A stretch of 5,663 bases of DNA from Candidatus Babelota bacterium. GTDB taxonomy: Bacteria > Babelota > Babeliae > Babelales > Vermiphilaceae. Of this stretch, positions 1-5,518 are shown in pieces. The position numbers and the translations under genes were made by a program. Under the pieces are notes generated by a model. The model was not told the origin of the DNA. It saw only the letters and a program-made list of their open reading frames with translations, and did no database searches. The stretch's first letter is position 1; each line of letters opens with the position of its first letter. The stretch lies in the NCBI GenBank assembly GCA_013213985.1, contig JABSSP010000006.1:1-5663 (forward strand). The letters run 5' to 3'.

Positions 1-589
1 TTTCTTTGTTGGGTAGTGTGCGCATATCTAAAAAATTTTGTCCTATCCAAAGATATTCATATAATGTTTTCGGATGACTTTTCTTTACATAACCAGCAAG
101 AGAACTATTCTTCATGTATTCTTCAATGCTAAAATTATCGATTAAAAAAAGATCTCCTTCTATCAACGCAACAATACCTTCAAATTTGAAGCCTACAGTA
201 TCAAGCATATACTGTACTACGTTGCAATTACGTACAGAAGGTGAATGGTAGTTGCTTAAATGCCAATACGCCCCCGCTTCTCGTAACAAATAAGGGCGGT
301 CATGAATTTCTTGAGGAATTTGAATGCACTGAATATTGTAATCATTACATGTATCAACGATACTTTGATTAATTTTACTATCACGAGCATCGTTAAACAC
401 AATGATTTCGTGATCATCCTTTAAAAATTTCTTAAATGTTTTGTGTTGTACTTCAATAAAGCTAGGATTGTTACATGTAGGAATTAGGATTAAAACTTTT
501 GAGCAGGTAAATTCGTGCATGAGTAATATAAGCACAGCAAAAAGTAATTTAAAAAATGGTGATTTAGATCGCATAGCTATTTTACCCAT
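1..589 (-). CDS. Putative GT-A-like glycosyltransferase with N-terminal signal peptide (partial, C-terminus beyond left edge)
   Basis: An open frame of 196 codons starts at ATG 589 and runs off the left edge without a stop, so the C-terminus is missing. The first ~30 residues are a basic stretch (MGKIAMRSKS) followed by a hydrophobic core (FFKLLFAVLILLM), like a signal peptide or membrane anchor. Next comes a beta strand opening a Rossmann-like fold (KVLILIPTCNNP, 31-42), a second one (HEIIVFND, 60-67), and an acidic motif LIEGDLFLIDNFSIEEY (142-158). The last resembles the DxD-plus-hydrophobic pattern of GT-A glycosyltransferases, with Glu in place of the first Asp. The gene follows the GT-D gene by 32 nt in the same direction, so it is probably co-transcribed. 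The ribosome binding site is weak, and a second ATG at 574 (residue 6) could be the true start. I do not recognise the exact family; glycosyltransferase activity is inferred from the fold-like pattern and context. Confidence 0.6.
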   Translation of the reverse strand, partial: MGKIAMRSKSPFFKLLFAVLILLMHEFTCSKVLILIPTCNNPSFIEVQHKTFKKFLKDDHEIIVFNDARDSKINQSIVDTCNDYNIQCIQIPQEIHDRPYLLREAGAYWHLSNYHSPSVRNCNVVQYMLDTVGFKFEGIVALIEGDLFLIDNFSIEEYMKNSSLAGYVKKSHPKTLYEYLWIGQNFLDMRTLPNKE

Positions 590-621
590 TAAAGAGTTTT
601 TTCATCTTCTAGATATATTTT

Positions 622-1491
622 TTACTGTAATGCCAGTATTAATTTTTGTTTGAGTGCATTTAAGGCTGCGGTGTTATCATTAATCCATTCACGTGTATTC
701 CAGTCACATAGCGCATCTATTAAACTTCCAAAATCAAATAGAAAAACATTATCAAGTTTGTACCACAATCTTTTTTGCAGCATTTTACTCAAAGTTCCTG
801 CTGCAAAAATAATAACTTTATATTCATTATCTTTTTTGGCGACTTCTAAACATTTTTGTTCTACGGAGTCTATTATTTTATATGGATGTTTTGGAGGGGT
901 TGGAATAAACATACAATGGGAACCAAATAACATTGTTGTAATATGTTTTGGTATATTTTCATTTCCTATAAGTATACAGCTGTTGTGAGATTTTAAAAAT
1001 TGTAAAAATTCAAGACAGTAATCATGATCAGTTACCGCAACATGATGAAGTGCAACAGGAGAGTACACATTTTTTATAGGTTTTCCCCAAAACTGTGCTA
1101 TATCTCTTAAAAATTTGAGAGTTACGTCATAACTTCGCTCATGTGTACCTGGGGACATACCTTTTTCATTAGTATTTAATTTTTTACAATTCATGGGTAT
1201 AGATTTTAAGATGGTTGGCCCATTGAGAGACATGGCCTCTCGCATTTCTAATTCTATCCCCTTTATAAGTTGTTGCTTACCCCAATTTCTTCCTTTTGCT
1301 AAGGCAAATTCTCCATCTCCAAACCTGAGATATGCACCCTTTTGTTTACTAGATATAAGGCCTACAATCTTATTCAATGTTTCCTTTGCCGTATAATATT
1401 TTAAGTTGGGAGCTATTTGATCGAGAGTAAAATAAGGGTGAGTTATCAAAAAGTGGCTTAAACTTAGAAAAAAAAATATTTTAGTTTTCAT
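622..1491 (-). CDS. GT-D fold glycosyltransferase (DUF1792/PF08759-like), intact copy
   Basis: This 289-residue protein matches the pattern of GT-D fold glycosyltransferases. It has YLRFGDGE at residues 54-61, where the Asp-Gly-Glu is the family's nucleotide-sugar and metal motif. It also has ILIGNE (173-178), a strand-loop IIFAAGTLSKML (227-238) and a conserved-looking end FLFDFGSLIDAL (250-261). The family transfers a sugar from a nucleotide sugar to a growing glycan; donor and acceptor cannot be read from the sequence. Residues 1-20 (MKTKIFFFLSLSHFLIT...) form a signal-like hydrophobic leader without a clear AxA cleavage site. I place the start at ATG 1491, not at the TTG six bases upstream. 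The motif AAAGG sits 6 nt before this ATG but directly against the TTG. From this ATG the protein also aligns without a gap to the truncated paralogue at 2587 through the RFGDG motif. It lies 30 nt after methyltransferase B. A T9 tract falls within the leader codons. Confidence 0.82.
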   Translation of the reverse strand: MKTKIFFFLSLSHFLITHPYFTLDQIAPNLKYYTAKETLNKIVGLISSKQKGAYLRFGDGEFALAKGRNWGKQQLIKGIELEMREAMSLNGPTILKSIPMNCKKLNTNEKGMSPGTHERSYDVTLKFLRDIAQFWGKPIKNVYSPVALHHVAVTDHDYCLEFLQFLKSHNSCILIGNENIPKHITTMLFGSHCMFIPTPPKHPYKIIDSVEQKCLEVAKKDNEYKVIIFAAGTLSKMLQKRLWYKLDNVFLFDFGSLIDALCDWNTREWINDNTAALNALKQKLILALQ

Positions 1492-1497
1492 ATTCAA

Positions 1498-1502
1498 CCT
1501 TT
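1498..1502 (-). promoter_or_regulatory. Ribosome binding site deciding the GT-D start (AAAGG)
   Basis: On the minus strand AAAGG is followed by a 6-nt spacer (TTGAAT) and then ATG 1491. A TTG codon begins immediately after the AAAGG, which leaves no usable spacing, so ATG 1491 is the better start. Confidence 0.6.
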
Positions 1503-1521
1503 AAAATCTTAGAGATATTTC

Positions 1522-2250
1522 TTATCTTTTTATTACAAAACATAGACTATCGTAAAAATGTATGGATTTTATATTTTTTTGGAAGTAGTTTAAGGTTTGT
1601 AATGTTTTTTCTGGACATTTTTCAAAATTTGCTCTTGCAATACGCGCACCAACAACATTTACGTCGTCGATAAGACGTTTGAAAAAAGCTACGGTTGTAC
1701 CTTTCTTAGCTTGAATGGTATCTGTAGGCATATTTTTGTAATACTTTTCCCAATAAGAGGTATGTAGGTCCTCAATAATATATATTCCACCCGCTTTTAC
1801 ATAGGGGAATAGTGCTTTAAATGTGTTTATTTGTTGTGTCATTGTGTGTCCACCATCATCTAAGATGATGTCGAATTTTATATTTACCTTGTTTATAAAG
1901 TTATCAATTTGACTAGAGTCAGATTGATTTACCACATGGAAAAAGCATCTCCTTGATAAATCTTGGCCGTATTCTTTGAATAATTTTTGATTTATGTCTA
2001 TAAAGTGGAGTTCTGCGTTAGGAAAATATTCTTCCCACATATGTGCGGAGGCTCCCTTCCAAAAGCCAATTTCGAGAAATTTAATTGATTTATCTCTTAA
2101 TTGAGTAAAGTGGTTATGGTATATCGGTGTATAATTGTGCCATATGGGGCCCTTGTCAGTGCCATATTTTACAGCTAATTCAGATAATGGGTCAGCGGCA
2201 AGAACAGAACTACAGTAGAATAAAATTGTATAAAATACGTATTTTTTCAT
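1522..2250 (-). CDS. SAM-dependent O-methyltransferase B (MycE/TylF-like), with signal peptide
   Basis: This is a 242-residue class I methyltransferase. After a signal peptide (MKKYVFYTILFYCSSVLAA, cleavage likely near residues 18-19) comes LAVKYGTDKG (25-34), a block typical of macrolide-sugar O-methyltransferases such as MycE. The SAM-binding strand and glycine loop is FLEIGFWKGASAHMW (58-72), and the acidic residue after strand 2 lies in FIDIN (83-87). IILDDGGH (128-135) and IIEDL (158-162) fit the Asp and Glu-Asp positions that bind a divalent metal in MycE-type enzymes. The likely reaction is methylation of a sugar hydroxyl. It is a clear paralogue of the protein at 3390-2623, sharing most of the core and the ending FxIKR. 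It differs mainly in the loop near residues 165-185, which is shorter here and may change the acceptor. The start ATG has AAGGA at spacing 6. The substrate is not known. Confidence 0.85.
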   Translation of the reverse strand: MKKYVFYTILFYCSSVLAADPLSELAVKYGTDKGPIWHNYTPIYHNHFTQLRDKSIKFLEIGFWKGASAHMWEEYFPNAELHFIDINQKLFKEYGQDLSRRCFFHVVNQSDSSQIDNFINKVNIKFDIILDDGGHTMTQQINTFKALFPYVKAGGIYIIEDLHTSYWEKYYKNMPTDTIQAKKGTTVAFFKRLIDDVNVVGARIARANFEKCPEKTLQTLNYFQKNIKSIHFYDSLCFVIKR

Positions 2251-2259
2251 TTATTTTCC

Positions 2260-2587
2260 TTACATTGTTAAAAATTTTTTATAGTGGTATAAATGATCAT
2301 CAATAAAATTATTGATACTCTCCTTTATGTCCTTGCATTTCCAGCTGAAATTCTTGTGTAACAGTGGGGTGTGTTTTTGAACCTTTACCATTAGCTATAT
2401 TAAGATCACCGTCTCCAAATCTCAGGTAGGCTCCCTTTTGTTTGTGGAAAATGATATCCATAACCTTTTGTAAGGTTTCTTTACTATCATAAAGCTTTAA
2501 TTGTGGGGCTAGTTCTGTAATAAGATTATTTGATAAAATTGGTAAGAAGGAACATATAAACAAGACAGATATGGATTTGGCCACCAT
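2260..2587 (-). pseudogene. Truncated GT-D fold glycosyltransferase, second copy (N-terminal fragment)
   Basis: An open frame of 92 codons (2587-2309) matches the first ~84 residues of the intact GT-D protein at 1491-622. It has a signal-like leader (MVAKSISVLFICSFLPILS), APQLKLYDSKETL (27-39), KQKGAYLRFGDGD (49-61) and a last shared block QLEM (81-84). After that it reads eight unrelated residues and stops, so about 200 residues of the catalytic domain are missing. The last acidic residue of the DGE motif is Asp here. A ribosome binding site (AAGGG, spacing 6) remains. In the +1 frame, after the break, a short stretch KDIKESINNFIDDHLYHYKK continues to a stop at 2262-2260, right on the ribosome binding site of the next gene. 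This could be the remains of the original C-terminus, so I extend the pseudogene to 2260. An internal deletion with frameshift is the best explanation. A small expressed leader-domain protein is less likely. Confidence 0.72.
2299..2316. repeat. Perfect 8-bp inverted repeat, 2-nt spacer
   Basis: The 18 bases ATCAATAAAATTATTGAT have arms ATCAATAA (2299-2306) and TTATTGAT (2309-2316). The dyad spans the stop codon of the truncated GT-D frame. It has only two G/C pairs in the stem, so a stable terminator hairpin is unlikely. It could be a chance AT-rich palindrome, a weak RNA hairpin or a scar at the deletion end. Confidence 0.4.
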
Positions 2588-2622
2588 TTCATACCCTTAT
2601 AATATAATTTTGACCTTAATCT

Positions 2623-3390
2623 TTACGTTTTACGTTTAATGATGAAACAGATGAGATCATAAAAATGCATTGATTGTATGTATCGTTGAAAGTAATTAAA
2701 TTCTTCCGCTAAGCTTTCAGGGTGGTTAGCTCTATTTGCCATCCTTGTCTTAGAACCAGCATAATTAAGATCATCCAAACGATCCTTTAAAAATTGAATG
2801 GTAGTTCCTGGGCCCGCCTTAGGATTTTCTTGTGTTCCCAGTCCTCCGTAGTACTGGGTTCTCCATGATTCAATATAGGAACTGAATAAATCTTCAACCA
2901 CATATATGCCCCCAGCCTTAACTCCGGCAAATAAATACTTGAAGCTAGTAATTTGTTGAATCATACTGTGGCCACCGTCATCTATAATAATGTCGAAGTC
3001 GCTGCCAACTTGGTCTAAAAAGCTTTTTAGCTGGTCAGGATCAGATTGATCTAAAACATGAAAGTGGCATCGTTGAGATAATCCCCTATCGTACTTTTCA
3101 AAATATTTTTTATCGATATCAATAAAATGAAGTTCCGCATTAGGAAAATACTCTGCCCACATACGTGCGGACGATCCATGCCAAAAACCAATTTCGAGGA
3201 ATTTAATTGGTTTATTTTTGAGTGGAGCAAAATACTGATGATAAAGCTCTGTGTAATTGTGCCACACGGGACCTTTATCAGTTTTATATTTTGTAGCTAG
3301 GTCAGATAAAGGGTTAGCCGTGAGAACATTTGTAGATAACAGATGTACGATGCAAAAAATAGCTACCATCTTAGAATTTTTGATTATCAT
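2623..3390 (-). CDS. SAM-dependent O-methyltransferase A (MycE/TylF-like), with signal peptide
   Basis: This 255-residue class I methyltransferase is paralogous to the one at 2250-1522. Residues 1-25 are signal-like: a basic start, then the hydrophobic VAIFCIVHLLSTNVLTA with cleavage plausible after Ala25. LATKYKTDKG (31-40) leads into the SAM loop FLEIGFWHGSSARMW (64-78). FIDID (89-93) gives the acidic ribose-binding position. IIIDDGGH (134-141) and VVEDL (164-168) supply the candidate metal ligands of MycE-like sugar O-methyltransferases. Compared with its paralogue it carries extra residues around 170-195 (SYIESWRTQYYGGLGTQENP), which suggests a different acceptor or position of methylation. 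It starts 14 nt after the epimerase/reductase stop with a strong AAAGGAG, so it is surely in the same transcript. Methylation of a rhamnose-type sugar is inferred from that neighbourhood and not shown by the sequence. Confidence 0.85.
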   Translation of the reverse strand: MIIKNSKMVAIFCIVHLLSTNVLTANPLSDLATKYKTDKGPVWHNYTELYHQYFAPLKNKPIKFLEIGFWHGSSARMWAEYFPNAELHFIDIDKKYFEKYDRGLSQRCHFHVLDQSDPDQLKSFLDQVGSDFDIIIDDGGHSMIQQITSFKYLFAGVKAGGIYVVEDLFSSYIESWRTQYYGGLGTQENPKAGPGTTIQFLKDRLDDLNYAGSKTRMANRANHPESLAEEFNYFQRYIQSMHFYDLICFIIKRKT

Positions 3391-3397
3391 TATAAAA

Positions 3398-3404
3398 CTC
3401 CTTT
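3398..3404 (-). promoter_or_regulatory. Strong ribosome binding site of methyltransferase A (AAAGGAG)
   Basis: AAAGGAG lies directly after the TAA of the epimerase/reductase and 7 nt before ATG 3390. It is the best anti-16S match in the window, and its position against the upstream stop indicates coupled translation in one bacterial operon. Confidence 0.7.
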
Positions 3405-4352
3405 TTATCTTTTAGCAATATTAATCTTGATTTTAAAATTTTTTTGCATACGTTTAAAGACACCAATTATTGATTTTTGTATATGCGTAATTTGTGGAAA
3501 TTCGGATAACAGCTTATTTACATCCAGTTCATTATTTGATCTGCCAGCTTTTAAAATTTTATCTTGCTCTTCCAATGTAAAATTTTTATACGTGAAATTT
3601 GGATCAATATATTGTGTATAGAGGTCCAAAATTTGATTGTGCGATATTACTCCAGGATTAACGAAATTATAATTGCCTGTCAATTGTCGTTCAGCCATGA
3701 TTGGTACCAAGGGTAATAAATCATGTAATACACTCATTGAATTAGGAATATTAACTACACGAGCGTATTTAGTTATTTTGGTGATGAAGTTGCGGTGATG
3801 TAGATCATCAGAAATTGGCATACGTAAGCGTAAGTTTAGAACATTGGGATAGCAGGTAACTAATTTGTCGAGCATTGTTTTAGTAAATGAATAAAAAGAG
3901 CCTTGGAAATTGGGTTCTTCATTTTCGGTGAAACCAATGCCGCTGTGCATTGAATGTTTGGCATCGTACTCGTAAATACAACCAGTACCAAAGTTAATCA
4001 CATGAATGTTATGAACGTATGCTACATCAAAAAGGGTGAGGGCGCCAACAAGGTTAGCTCGTATAACATGTTGTTTATTGCTTTCACACCAGTCAACGTT
4101 AGGACGTCCGGTCACGCCCGCTGCATTAATAATATGGTCTGGCTTTACTTGTGTAATTTTTTTTTCAAGGTCAGCTCTGTTTTGCAAGCGAGATTTGGCA
4201 CATACAGCTTCATGGCCTTTATTTTGTAAAATATGAACAATTTTTTTTCCTATCCATCCAGTTTTTCCGCCGAATACTAAAAAGGTTTTTGCGCTCATGT
4301 TTCCCAACGTAAGCGTAATACAACAAATGATGATCCATAGTTGTTTGTTCAT
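3405..4352 (-). CDS. Bifunctional NDP-4-keto-6-deoxyglucose 3,5-epimerase/4-reductase (plant NRS/ER and mimivirus L780 type)
   Basis: This 315-residue extended SDR protein would turn NDP-4-keto-6-deoxyglucose into NDP-L-rhamnose using NAD(P)H. It shows the family's distinctive blocks: FGGKTGWIGKK (27-37, cofactor loop), NAAGVTGRPNVDWCES (76-91), FGTGCIYEYD (121-130), GSFYSFTK (151-158, catalytic Tyr154/Lys158), RMPISDD (177-183) and RNFITKITKY (187-196). Near the end are NPGVISHN (232-239), NFTLEEQ (257-263) and RSNNELD (271-277). These strings are close to plant NRS/ER (UER1) and the C-terminal half of RHM, rather than to bacterial RmlD. Cys125 and Lys192 sit where, as I recall, epimerase residues were reported in Arabidopsis UER1. 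Residues 1-21 (MNKQLWIIICCITLTLGNMSA) are an added signal-like leader absent from the cytosolic plant enzyme. The start has AAGGGAG at spacing 9, and the gene follows the dehydratase by 17 nt. The coding strand contains A8 and A9 runs. Confidence 0.88.
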   Translation of the reverse strand: MNKQLWIIICCITLTLGNMSAKTFLVFGGKTGWIGKKIVHILQNKGHEAVCAKSRLQNRADLEKKITQVKPDHIINAAGVTGRPNVDWCESNKQHVIRANLVGALTLFDVAYVHNIHVINFGTGCIYEYDAKHSMHSGIGFTENEEPNFQGSFYSFTKTMLDKLVTCYPNVLNLRLRMPISDDLHHRNFITKITKYARVVNIPNSMSVLHDLLPLVPIMAERQLTGNYNFVNPGVISHNQILDLYTQYIDPNFTYKNFTLEEQDKILKAGRSNNELDVNKLLSEFPQITHIQKSIIGVFKRMQKNFKIKINIAKR

Positions 4353-4369
4353 TTACCGAGTCTCCCTTG

Positions 4370-5518
4370 TTATTGTAATGTTATAGTTCCATGACTTGTT
4401 TGAACCGGAATATGTTTCATTCCTTCCATTCGTTGCCAGCGAGCTCTATTATTTTCGTACCAGGTTATAACGTCTTTTATTCCTTCTTCTAAAGAGATTT
4501 CTGTTTGCCAATCAAGAAGTTTTCTAGCTTTCTCAGTTGAAGAAATATGGCATGCCACTTGGCCTGGTCTGTCCGGAGTAAACTGAAGATAGTCTTCTGG
4601 CAGATCAAAGTGTTCTAAGATTTTTTTGGCTATGGTAACTACTGACGTAGCAATACCACTGCCAATATGAAGAATCTGATTTTTTATTTTAGAGAAATCT
4701 TCAAGATGCAAGGCTTTATCAAGGGCCCGTGCTAAATCAAGAGTGTGCAGCCAATCGCGGCTTTGTTCACCGGTACCGTGAACCGTTAAAGGTTCGCCTT
4801 TCATTGCTGCTGTTATAAAACGAGGAAGCATTTTTTCAAGATGTTGTTGTGGGCCATAATTGTTAAATGGTCTTATGATGAGTGCAGGGATATCATACGT
4901 GCACCAATAAGAATAAACCAGGCGATCTGCTCCGGCTTTGGCAGCTGCGTAAGGAGAACGAGGATTAATAGGATGTTCTTCGTCCATAGGCTGTGTTTCG
5001 GCAGTGCCACAAACTTCAGAAGTTGAAATATGAATGTAGCGTTGTATTGTTGACGTATGTTTAACAAGTGAGCGCATCATGACACGAGTACCCATAACAT
5101 CGGTATCAAAAAATGCCAGATCATCAAAAATACTGCGACATACATGCGACTCTGCTGCAAAATGCACGACATAATCAGCTCGACTCATGACAAGGTCAAC
5201 AATATCAGGATTGGTTACTGAGCCGTAGAAAAAATTAAATCGGTTAGATTTACGGATATAGTCAGGAATATTTTCTAACGAACCGGCATAGGTAAGGAGA
5301 TCCAAAACATCAAAGGTATAGTTTGGATATTTATCAAACATGTATTGTAAAAAATTACTGCCGATAAAGCCGGCAGCACCAGTCAACAGTACAGTTTTGT
5401 GTTCCCGCTGACGGTGTATTGATGTATGTAAAAAAGAATCACTGCATTGTGTTAGTGAGATAAAAATGTTAAAAAGTACGACAAGTAGAAAACCTGTATG
5501 TATCATTTGTTTCTTCAT
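4370..5518 (-). CDS. NDP-hexose 4,6-dehydratase (RmlB/RfbB-like extended SDR), with N-terminal leader
   Basis: This 382-residue protein is an extended SDR dehydratase of the dTDP/UDP-glucose 4,6-dehydratase group, which makes NDP-4-keto-6-deoxyhexose with bound NAD. It has LLTGAAGFIGSN (44-55, NAD loop), VVHFAAESHV (117-126), ISTSEVCG (164-171), SPYAAAKAGADRL (188-200, catalytic Tyr190/Lys194), RPFNNYGPQQHLEKMLPRF (216-234) and SRDWLH (253-258). The ending KARKLLDW (330-337) is typical of the family. Where RmlB has Thr-Asp-Glu, this protein has Thr-Ser-Glu (166-168). That occurs in GDP-mannose dehydratases and UXS/LegB-type enzymes, so the exact nucleotide sugar is uncertain. The epimerase/reductase next door argues for UDP- or dTDP-glucose. 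The first ~25 residues (hydrophobic GFLLVVLFNIFISLTQ) look like a signal peptide, followed by a ~15-residue linker before the Rossmann fold. It is the first gene of the operon, with AAGGGA at spacing 8. Confidence 0.85.
   Translation of the reverse strand: MKKQMIHTGFLLVVLFNIFISLTQCSDSFLHTSIHRQREHKTVLLTGAAGFIGSNFLQYMFDKYPNYTFDVLDLLTYAGSLENIPDYIRKSNRFNFFYGSVTNPDIVDLVMSRADYVVHFAAESHVCRSIFDDLAFFDTDVMGTRVMMRSLVKHTSTIQRYIHISTSEVCGTAETQPMDEEHPINPRSPYAAAKAGADRLVYSYWCTYDIPALIIRPFNNYGPQQHLEKMLPRFITAAMKGEPLTVHGTGEQSRDWLHTLDLARALDKALHLEDFSKIKNQILHIGSGIATSVVTIAKKILEHFDLPEDYLQFTPDRPGQVACHISSTEKARKLLDWQTEISLEEGIKDVITWYENNRARWQRMEGMKHIPVQTSHGTITLQ

Follow-up and report, generated by a model that had tools for sequence, protein, structure and literature searches.

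Predicted export leaders on a sugar-nucleotide and glycan gene cluster of a Babelota bacterium

A 5,663-nucleotide stretch of a Candidatus Babelota genome (hereafter the window; contig C133 of an 886 kb draft that is 88% complete) carries seven minus-strand genes, spaced 14–58 bases apart, that are predicted to build and transfer a modified sugar. A first-pass annotation had described a signal-peptide-like leader on all seven. We find such a leader on six by rule and a borderline one on the seventh, and the property is conserved among relatives of these enzymes. From the sequences we consider it moderately probable that the seven leaders are Sec export signals and that the whole sugar-building pathway is sent out of the cell and, we infer, run in a protist host.

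Leaders of the window genes

A leader was called where a charge-free window of 10 residues with a mean Kyte-Doolittle hydropathy of at least 2.0 lay within the first 35 residues and was preceded by net positive charge. When the rule was calibrated on Escherichia coli K-12, it called leaders on 19 of 20 exported proteins, on 6 of 9 multi-membrane proteins, and on none of 53 cytosolic or 3 unlabelled ones; the exported and cytosolic labels are our own presumptive assignments from gene and product names. In the window, six of seven N-termini passed with scores of 2.05–3.42 (Table 1). The seventh, belonging to the GT-D-like protein encoded at 1491-622, scored 1.95 against the threshold of 2.0, and among cytosolic E. 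coli proteins whose n-region is net positive none scored above 1.58. The basic residues described earlier were confirmed throughout, with a net n-region charge of at least +1 in all seven leaders, and the hydrophobic stretch reached 2.0 in six. A candidate small-residue -3/-1 site was present in six by a loose, uncalibrated rule; none was found in the 1491-622 protein. Leaders in the window exceed chance when set against the same genome, where 19 of 63 soluble genes sampled from 20 contig stretches passed the rule (6/7 versus 19/63, Fisher p = 0.007).

That translation begins internally, with the enzymes cytosolic and the leaders annotation artefacts, appears highly improbable. The Shine-Dalgarno core is matched by 3–6 bases at the leader starts, 3 being a weak match, and five of the seven genes have no ATG between the hydrophobic core and the domain. 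A leaderless product is possible from an ATG after the core in only two, the epimerase/reductase (Met19) and the glycosyltransferase at the window end (Met24). In the former, the leader start has a longer ribosome-binding match than Met19 (4 versus 3); in the latter, both positions match equally well. Among leadered relatives, an internal ATG occurs in 11 of 90 epimerase/reductases (15 of 89 in a slightly wider count) and 10 of 89 dehydratases; most leaders thus have none, and internal starts would also sit poorly with a leader property that is retained while its letters diverge.

Conservation of leaders among relatives

For the epimerase/reductase, dehydratase and glycosyltransferase we considered the 120 best listed homologues of each, including the window's own protein or a near-copy, and left out 7, 9 and 6, respectively, for want of a recognized domain start. 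Leaders were found on 90 of 113, 89 of 111 and 93 of 114. Some of the remainder were near misses and some were hydrophobic starts lacking a charged residue; 10 or fewer residues precede the domain in 4 epimerase/reductases and 6 dehydratases. Over 1500 random pairs from the 90 passing epimerase/reductases, mean identity was 22% in the leader (best of 13 ungapped offsets) versus 57% in the first 60 mature residues, with a core score of 2.74 ± 0.37 in this set preselected at 2.0 or above. Across divergent relatives the leader persists as a property while its letters change, and leadered enzymes are present in several families within the order.

Loci fetched from relatives gave a similar picture. 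Here duplicates, alignments starting past residue 25 and matches over the E-value limits (L034, for example) were dropped, and only ATG starts were taken, such that leaders with a GTG start (the L104 dehydratase and L112 epimerase/reductase) score as misses. Leaders were carried by 15/18 epimerase/reductases, 13/15 glycosyltransferases, 4/5 methyltransferases, 2/4 GT-D genes and, within Babeliales, 6/9 dehydratases. The housekeeping controls ribosomal protein S2 (0/30) and PheS (0/3) were leaderless. The names PheS, GMP, GalU and Fcl, used here and below, follow the sequences and Pfam matches, not curated annotation. Two loci, L106 and L109, were first read as encoding leadered Rossmann enzymes and are actually leaderless, a false call that arises because the first strand of this fold is hydrophobic; later family counts score only the stretch before the domain. 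Secretins as an in-phylum positive control had a leader in only 7 of 30 cases, with loci incomplete, and were not used. A translocase frame next to S2 was called leadered in 2 of 27 cases, but as a membrane protein whose alignment begins part-way along the chain it provides no control.

In the suggested comparison with other homologues, none of seven dehydratases from outside the phylum was leadered, including those of Peregrinibacteria and Niyogibacteria at 60–62% identity. In a 16-row dehydratase tree, with L104 labelled leadered by hand owing to its GTG start, all seven leadered rows group in a single clade with support 97, beside two leaderless Babeliales, with Peregrinibacteria and Niyogibacteria outside. 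A 112-row tree, of which 14 rows are unlabelled, needs two changes of the leader trait.

Leaders also extend to adjacent genes. Soluble neighbors were leadered in 25 of 34 cases beside leadered dehydratases (six loci) versus 0 of 10 beside leaderless ones (p = 3.7e-5, treating genes as independent), a contrast weakened in that the leaderless side consists of two loci of one family (f15). Six epimerase/reductase loci without a dehydratase had 34 of 44 soluble neighbors leadered; G045, with 1 of 6, runs counter to this pattern. Loci L114, L117 and L119 were dropped from these counts, having no recognized focal gene. The leader thus behaves as a property of the gene neighborhood, G045 excepted. 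Examples of leadered genes close to the relatives' loci are GT2, GT6 and GT92 glycosyltransferases, a sulfotransferase and an FkbM methyltransferase. One locus (L103:8789-9550, genome G017) holds a leadered GT6-family glycosyltransferase (PF03414, E 2.2e-54), and 9 of 11 called genes in its 10 kb are leadered.

These counts bear on the idea that the leaders reflect a general habit of the phylum, namely signals on accessory genes with no coordinated exported pathway. Leaders are indeed common in this genome, as the base rate of 19/63 attests, and leadered guanosine diphosphate (GDP)-mannose pyrophosphorylase (GMP) adjoins leaderless GDP-mannose 4,6-dehydratase (Gmd) in 7 of 15 loci; both facts weigh against a dedicated pathway. 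A putative signal is also described for 44% of coding sequences in Chromulinavorax (PMC6561590). We nevertheless regard a general habit as an improbable explanation, given six leadered genes of seven in the window, the difference between neighbors of leadered and leaderless dehydratases, and the leaderless S2 genes. This explanation and the others considered here overlap with the one we favor, so that their probabilities do not sum to one.

Predicted export route

Charge-free runs span 11–23 residues in the window leaders, and their medians are 16–17 in relatives. The n-region carries more positive charge than the 12 residues that follow the run in 6 of 7 window leaders; among relatives, the same holds for 70/89 dehydratase, 51/90 epimerase/reductase and 45/95 glycosyltransferase leaders. 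More positive charge before the run, on average, predicts that the enzyme lies across the membrane, whether the leader is cut or uncut. Neither a twin-arginine motif nor a lipobox is present in any of the seven window leaders. Twin-arginine motifs are also few in relatives (2/89 dehydratase, 0/90 epimerase/reductase and 0/95 glycosyltransferase leaders), which points to Sec rather than Tat; lipobox-like motifs number 1/89, 10/90 and 2/95. Sec export with the catalytic domain outside would be the simplest reading of the leaders, and an uncut anchor would place the domain outside as well. The genome has one match to the secretin family PF00263 and two to the T2SSE ATPase PF00437, matches that do not distinguish type II secretion from type IV pili; together they represent a possible onward route.

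Between the two fates originally envisaged, membrane tethering and export, the latter is favored by a conserved property, the lack of leaders in the seven homologues compared from other phyla, a single leadered clade on a small dehydratase tree, a shared neighborhood and the charge bias. We therefore regard predicted export of the enzymes as well supported; tethering by an uncut leader remains compatible with it. Uncleaved N-terminal anchors would keep the enzymes attached to the inner membrane on its periplasmic side, where they would modify the envelope of the parasite itself. The charge-free runs could serve as anchors, the 1491-622 protein has no -3/-1 site that we could find, and the 10 of 90 epimerase/reductase leaders with lipobox-like motifs would belong to anchored proteins, which also counts against release. 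We consider such anchors unlikely: a candidate -3/-1 site, by the loose, uncalibrated rule, is present in 84/89 dehydratase and 85/90 epimerase/reductase leaders, and NAD(P)H, S-adenosylmethionine (SAM) and nucleotide sugars are not known to occur in the periplasm.

Several further points weigh against export as proposed. The leader rule is not SignalP and is blind to the difference between a cut signal and an uncut anchor. Among 95 glycosyltransferase leaders, 50 have as much charge after the run as in the n-region, or more, and the window epimerase/reductase has a charge of +1 before the run and +2 after it. Export as proposed would also require NAD-dependent enzymes to pass through Sec and to fold outside. 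Leaderless dehydratases occur in two Babeliales genomes and in at least 6 of 111 listed homologues, and GalU-type enzymes are also leadered in 1 of 3 cases. Finally, one survey places Dependentiae among the groups with the fewest predicted extracellular proteins per genome, with a mean of 15 over three groups (PMC11495043).

Enzymes of the cluster

The genes and leaders of the window are listed in Table 1.

Table 1. Genes of the window and their leaders
Feature	Position	Strand	Properties
Dehydratase, NAD-dependent sugar-nucleotide 4,6- (RmlB-like), 382 amino acids (aa)	4370..5518	-	PF16363 E 5.5e-62; best PDB match 6bi4, dTDP-glucose 4,6-dehydratase, 1.7e-65
Dehydratase leader, residues 1-28	5435..5518	-	score 3.09; n-charge +2; no ATG between core and domain
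3,5-epimerase/4-reductase, UDP-rhamnose (NRS/ER) type, 315 aa	3405..4352	-	PDB 4qqr E 5.6e-101; 7jid, UDP-L-rhamnose synthase, 2.2e-65
Epimerase/reductase leader, residues 1-21	4290..4352	-	score 2.92; n-charge +1
SAM-dependent methyltransferase (Methyltransf_24), 255 aa	2623..3390	-	PF13578 E 3.3e-8
Leader of methyltransferase 2623..3390, residues 1-25, VLTA end	3316..3390	-	score 2.89; n-charge +2; ribosome-binding match 6
5' remnant of GT-D-like gene, 92 aa	2309..2587	-	44% identity over 61 residues to full copy 1491-622
GT-D-like remnant leader, residues 1-19	2531..2587	-	score 2.73; n-charge +1
Second methyltransferase (Methyltransf_24), 242 aa	1522..2250	-	PF13578 E 6e-9; 54-55% identical to 3390-2623
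Second methyltransferase leader, residues 1-19, VLAA end	2194..2250	-	score 2.05; n-charge +2
GT-D-fold-like glycosyltransferase, 289 aa	622..1491	-	PF08759 E 6e-5, 23.4 bits, gathering cut-off 27
GT-D-like leader, about residues 1-22	1426..1491	-	score 1.95; n-charge +2; no -3/-1 site found
GT-A-fold glycosyltransferase, runs off window end	2..589	-	near-identical full copy is 340 aa
Glycosyltransferase leader, residues 1-30	500..589	-	score 3.42; n-charge +4; modelled helix 11-28, first strand 32-38

The dehydratase misses the curated cut-off of TIGR01181 (RmlB), with 282.9 versus 365.1 bits, and has Thr-Ser-Glu where RmlB has its catalytic motif Thr-Asp-Glu. Thus, we call this enzyme RmlB-like and treat its nucleotide and sugar as provisional. 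Of the 111 listed homologues, 107 carry STSE, whether or not they have a leader. The epimerase/reductase keeps Tyr-x3-Lys (as SFYSFTK) and the glycine-rich NAD(P) motif (GGKTGWIG), and is predicted to be a 3,5-epimerase/4-reductase of uridine diphosphate (UDP)-4-keto-6-deoxyglucose, the NRS/ER type. It aligns over nearly its whole mature length with an NRS/ER structure that we take to be from a plant (PDB 4qqr, residues 19-304) and with the UDP-L-rhamnose synthase 7jid (residues 24-302). Those solved chains differ in beginning only 9 and 5 residues before the match, with no leader (the constructs may be trimmed), whereas most listed homologues here are leadered. Catalytic motifs are retained in most leadered relatives, SPYxxxK in 83/89 dehydratases and Tyr-x3-Lys in 89/90 epimerase/reductases.

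No Pfam match was obtained for the glycosyltransferase at 2..589. A model of its near-identical full-length copy has a GT-A fold (predicted local distance difference test score 90.4), and in 50 sequences D146 of the Asp-Ser-Asp (Asp-x-Asp) motif is invariant and D144 and S145 nearly so. In the relative G080 (L107:12716-14539), a 607-aa frame with a single leader fuses an epimerase/reductase to a homologue of this glycosyltransferase. The fusion links the two activities and suggests that the glycosyltransferase uses the product of the epimerase/reductase. Six relatives encode a leadered dehydratase (L103, L104, L105, L107, L108 and L110), and in all of them the epimerase/reductase adjoins it; no epimerase/reductase was found in the two loci with a leaderless dehydratase. 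The GT-D assignment of the protein at 622..1491 falls below the PF08759 gathering cut-off. Its gene and a methyltransferase gene form a duplicated pair in which one GT-D-like copy is a remnant. The remnant at 2309-2587, a leftover of this tandem duplication, still has its leader.

Within the order, homologues were found in 16/101 genomes for the epimerase/reductase, 9/101 for the dehydratase, 8/86 for the glycosyltransferase, and 3/86 each for the methyltransferase and GT-D-like genes. The complete seven-gene order was not seen in any relative among the 86–101 genomes examined per gene. An origin as eukaryotic genes or contaminants was set aside because cluster genes recur within the order and named homologues are all in-phylum; the 4 of 120 listed homologues with a named organism are Babeliales, Babeliaceae or Dependentiae. 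A scan of viral contigs by short exact peptides found no relatives of the epimerase/reductase. Four of its homologues (P0003, P0059, P0078 and P0094; 54–56% identity) come from the source "merc", presumably a marine eukaryote catalogue, and may reflect gene exchange with eukaryotes.

Proposed pathway and host

Cultured Dependentiae/Babeliales are described as intracellular parasites of protists in PMC4378268 and PMC6561590, the latter describing Chromulinavorax as appearing in host cytoplasm. In keeping with an intracellular-parasite lifestyle, the window genome gave two matches to the ATP/ADP translocase family, a family that all 14 control genomes lack. In this genome a translocase gene adjoins that of ribosomal protein S2 (G000:C79:917-3166), and a homologous frame is present in 27 of 30 S2 loci examined.

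We propose that translation begins at the leaders and that SecYEG would move each enzyme over the inner membrane, the leader probably being removed by signal peptidase just ahead of the catalytic domain. The folded enzymes might then be released into the host by way of outer-membrane vesicles or a type II-like secretion system. Type II is the sole secretion system reported as detected in Babela (PMC4378268), and vesicles are described for a relative in the same phylum (PMC6561590). The host would supply UDP-glucose, NAD(P)H and SAM. From these the dehydratase and epimerase/reductase would presumably yield a UDP-6-deoxysugar of the UDP-L-rhamnose kind. The glycosyltransferases may transfer this sugar to an acceptor of the host or of the parasite surface, where the methyltransferases would cap it. 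Action of the enzymes in the host, to which cofactor location, the lifestyle of the phylum and the secretion-type genes point, we judge evenly poised. Somewhat more tentative is the broader picture of a Babeliales "extracorporeal glycan factory", in which complete nucleotide-sugar synthesis along with glycosyl-, methyl- and sulfotransferases would be exported and run in the protist-host cytosol, drawing on nucleotides and cofactors of the host to remodel surface sugars of either host or parasite.

Export might instead reach only the bacterial surface or host vacuole, where surface glycans of the parasite would be decorated from host-derived precursors. The leadered GT2, GT6, GT92, FkbM and sulfotransferase genes near relatives' loci fit such decoration, as does the precedent of giant viruses, whose own glycosylation machinery probably works at virus factories in the host (PMC4691112). 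No acceptor, anchor or polymerase was identified within the window, and we hold this outcome to be quite improbable.

The pathway that we propose to act in the host has partial counterparts. Giant-virus autonomous glycosylation likewise involves an intracellular parasite's own nucleotide-sugar enzymes and glycosyltransferases inside the host cell (PMC4691112), but viral proteins are translated in the host cytosol, whereas the bacterium here would need to export each enzyme. Babela massiliensis and Chromulinavorax destructans, of the same phylum, have very many predicted signal peptides, and type II or Sec secretion has been proposed for them; those studies, however, discuss ankyrin proteins, proteases and nucleases (PMC4378268, PMC6561590), and the words "epimerase" and "rhamnose" are absent from both main texts (supplements not searched). 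Among the papers listed in our literature searches, which drew on a library with few subscription journals, none had a title or opening abstract lines on exported nucleotide-sugar enzymes in this phylum. A leadered proteome is already known for Dependentiae, and we did not find an exported nucleotide-sugar and glycan pathway described for them.

Bacteria are known to secrete single effector enzymes. Secreted bacterial glycosyltransferase effectors act in the host with host UDP-sugars and resemble the present case in that respect, but there the transferase alone is exported, whereas here sugar-nucleotide synthesis is leadered too. A leadered pathway needing host cofactors at several steps would represent a different parasitism, nearer to giant-virus glycosylation. 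It would also provide a role for some of the many proteins predicted to be secreted in this phylum, which is widespread and has hardly been cultured.

GDP-sugar genes

The same genome holds a second leadered pair, in which Gmd and a GDP-L-fucose-synthase-like gene adjoin (L120:1524-3763; G000:C16). Among the best matches in fetched loci, leaders were carried by 15/29 GMP, 3/16 Gmd and 4/7 Fcl genes. The single PF00483 (NTP-transferase) match in the window genome is of the leaderless GalU type, which hints that this genome makes no GDP-mannose itself, a point not relied on at 88% completeness. The loci in which leadered GMP accompanies leaderless Gmd are L047, L049, L059, L060, L066, L069 and L070. 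In L044, two adjacent GMP-type paralogues are present, one leadered and one leaderless, and in L117 (G005) the GMP, Gmd and Fcl-like genes are all leadered in one locus.

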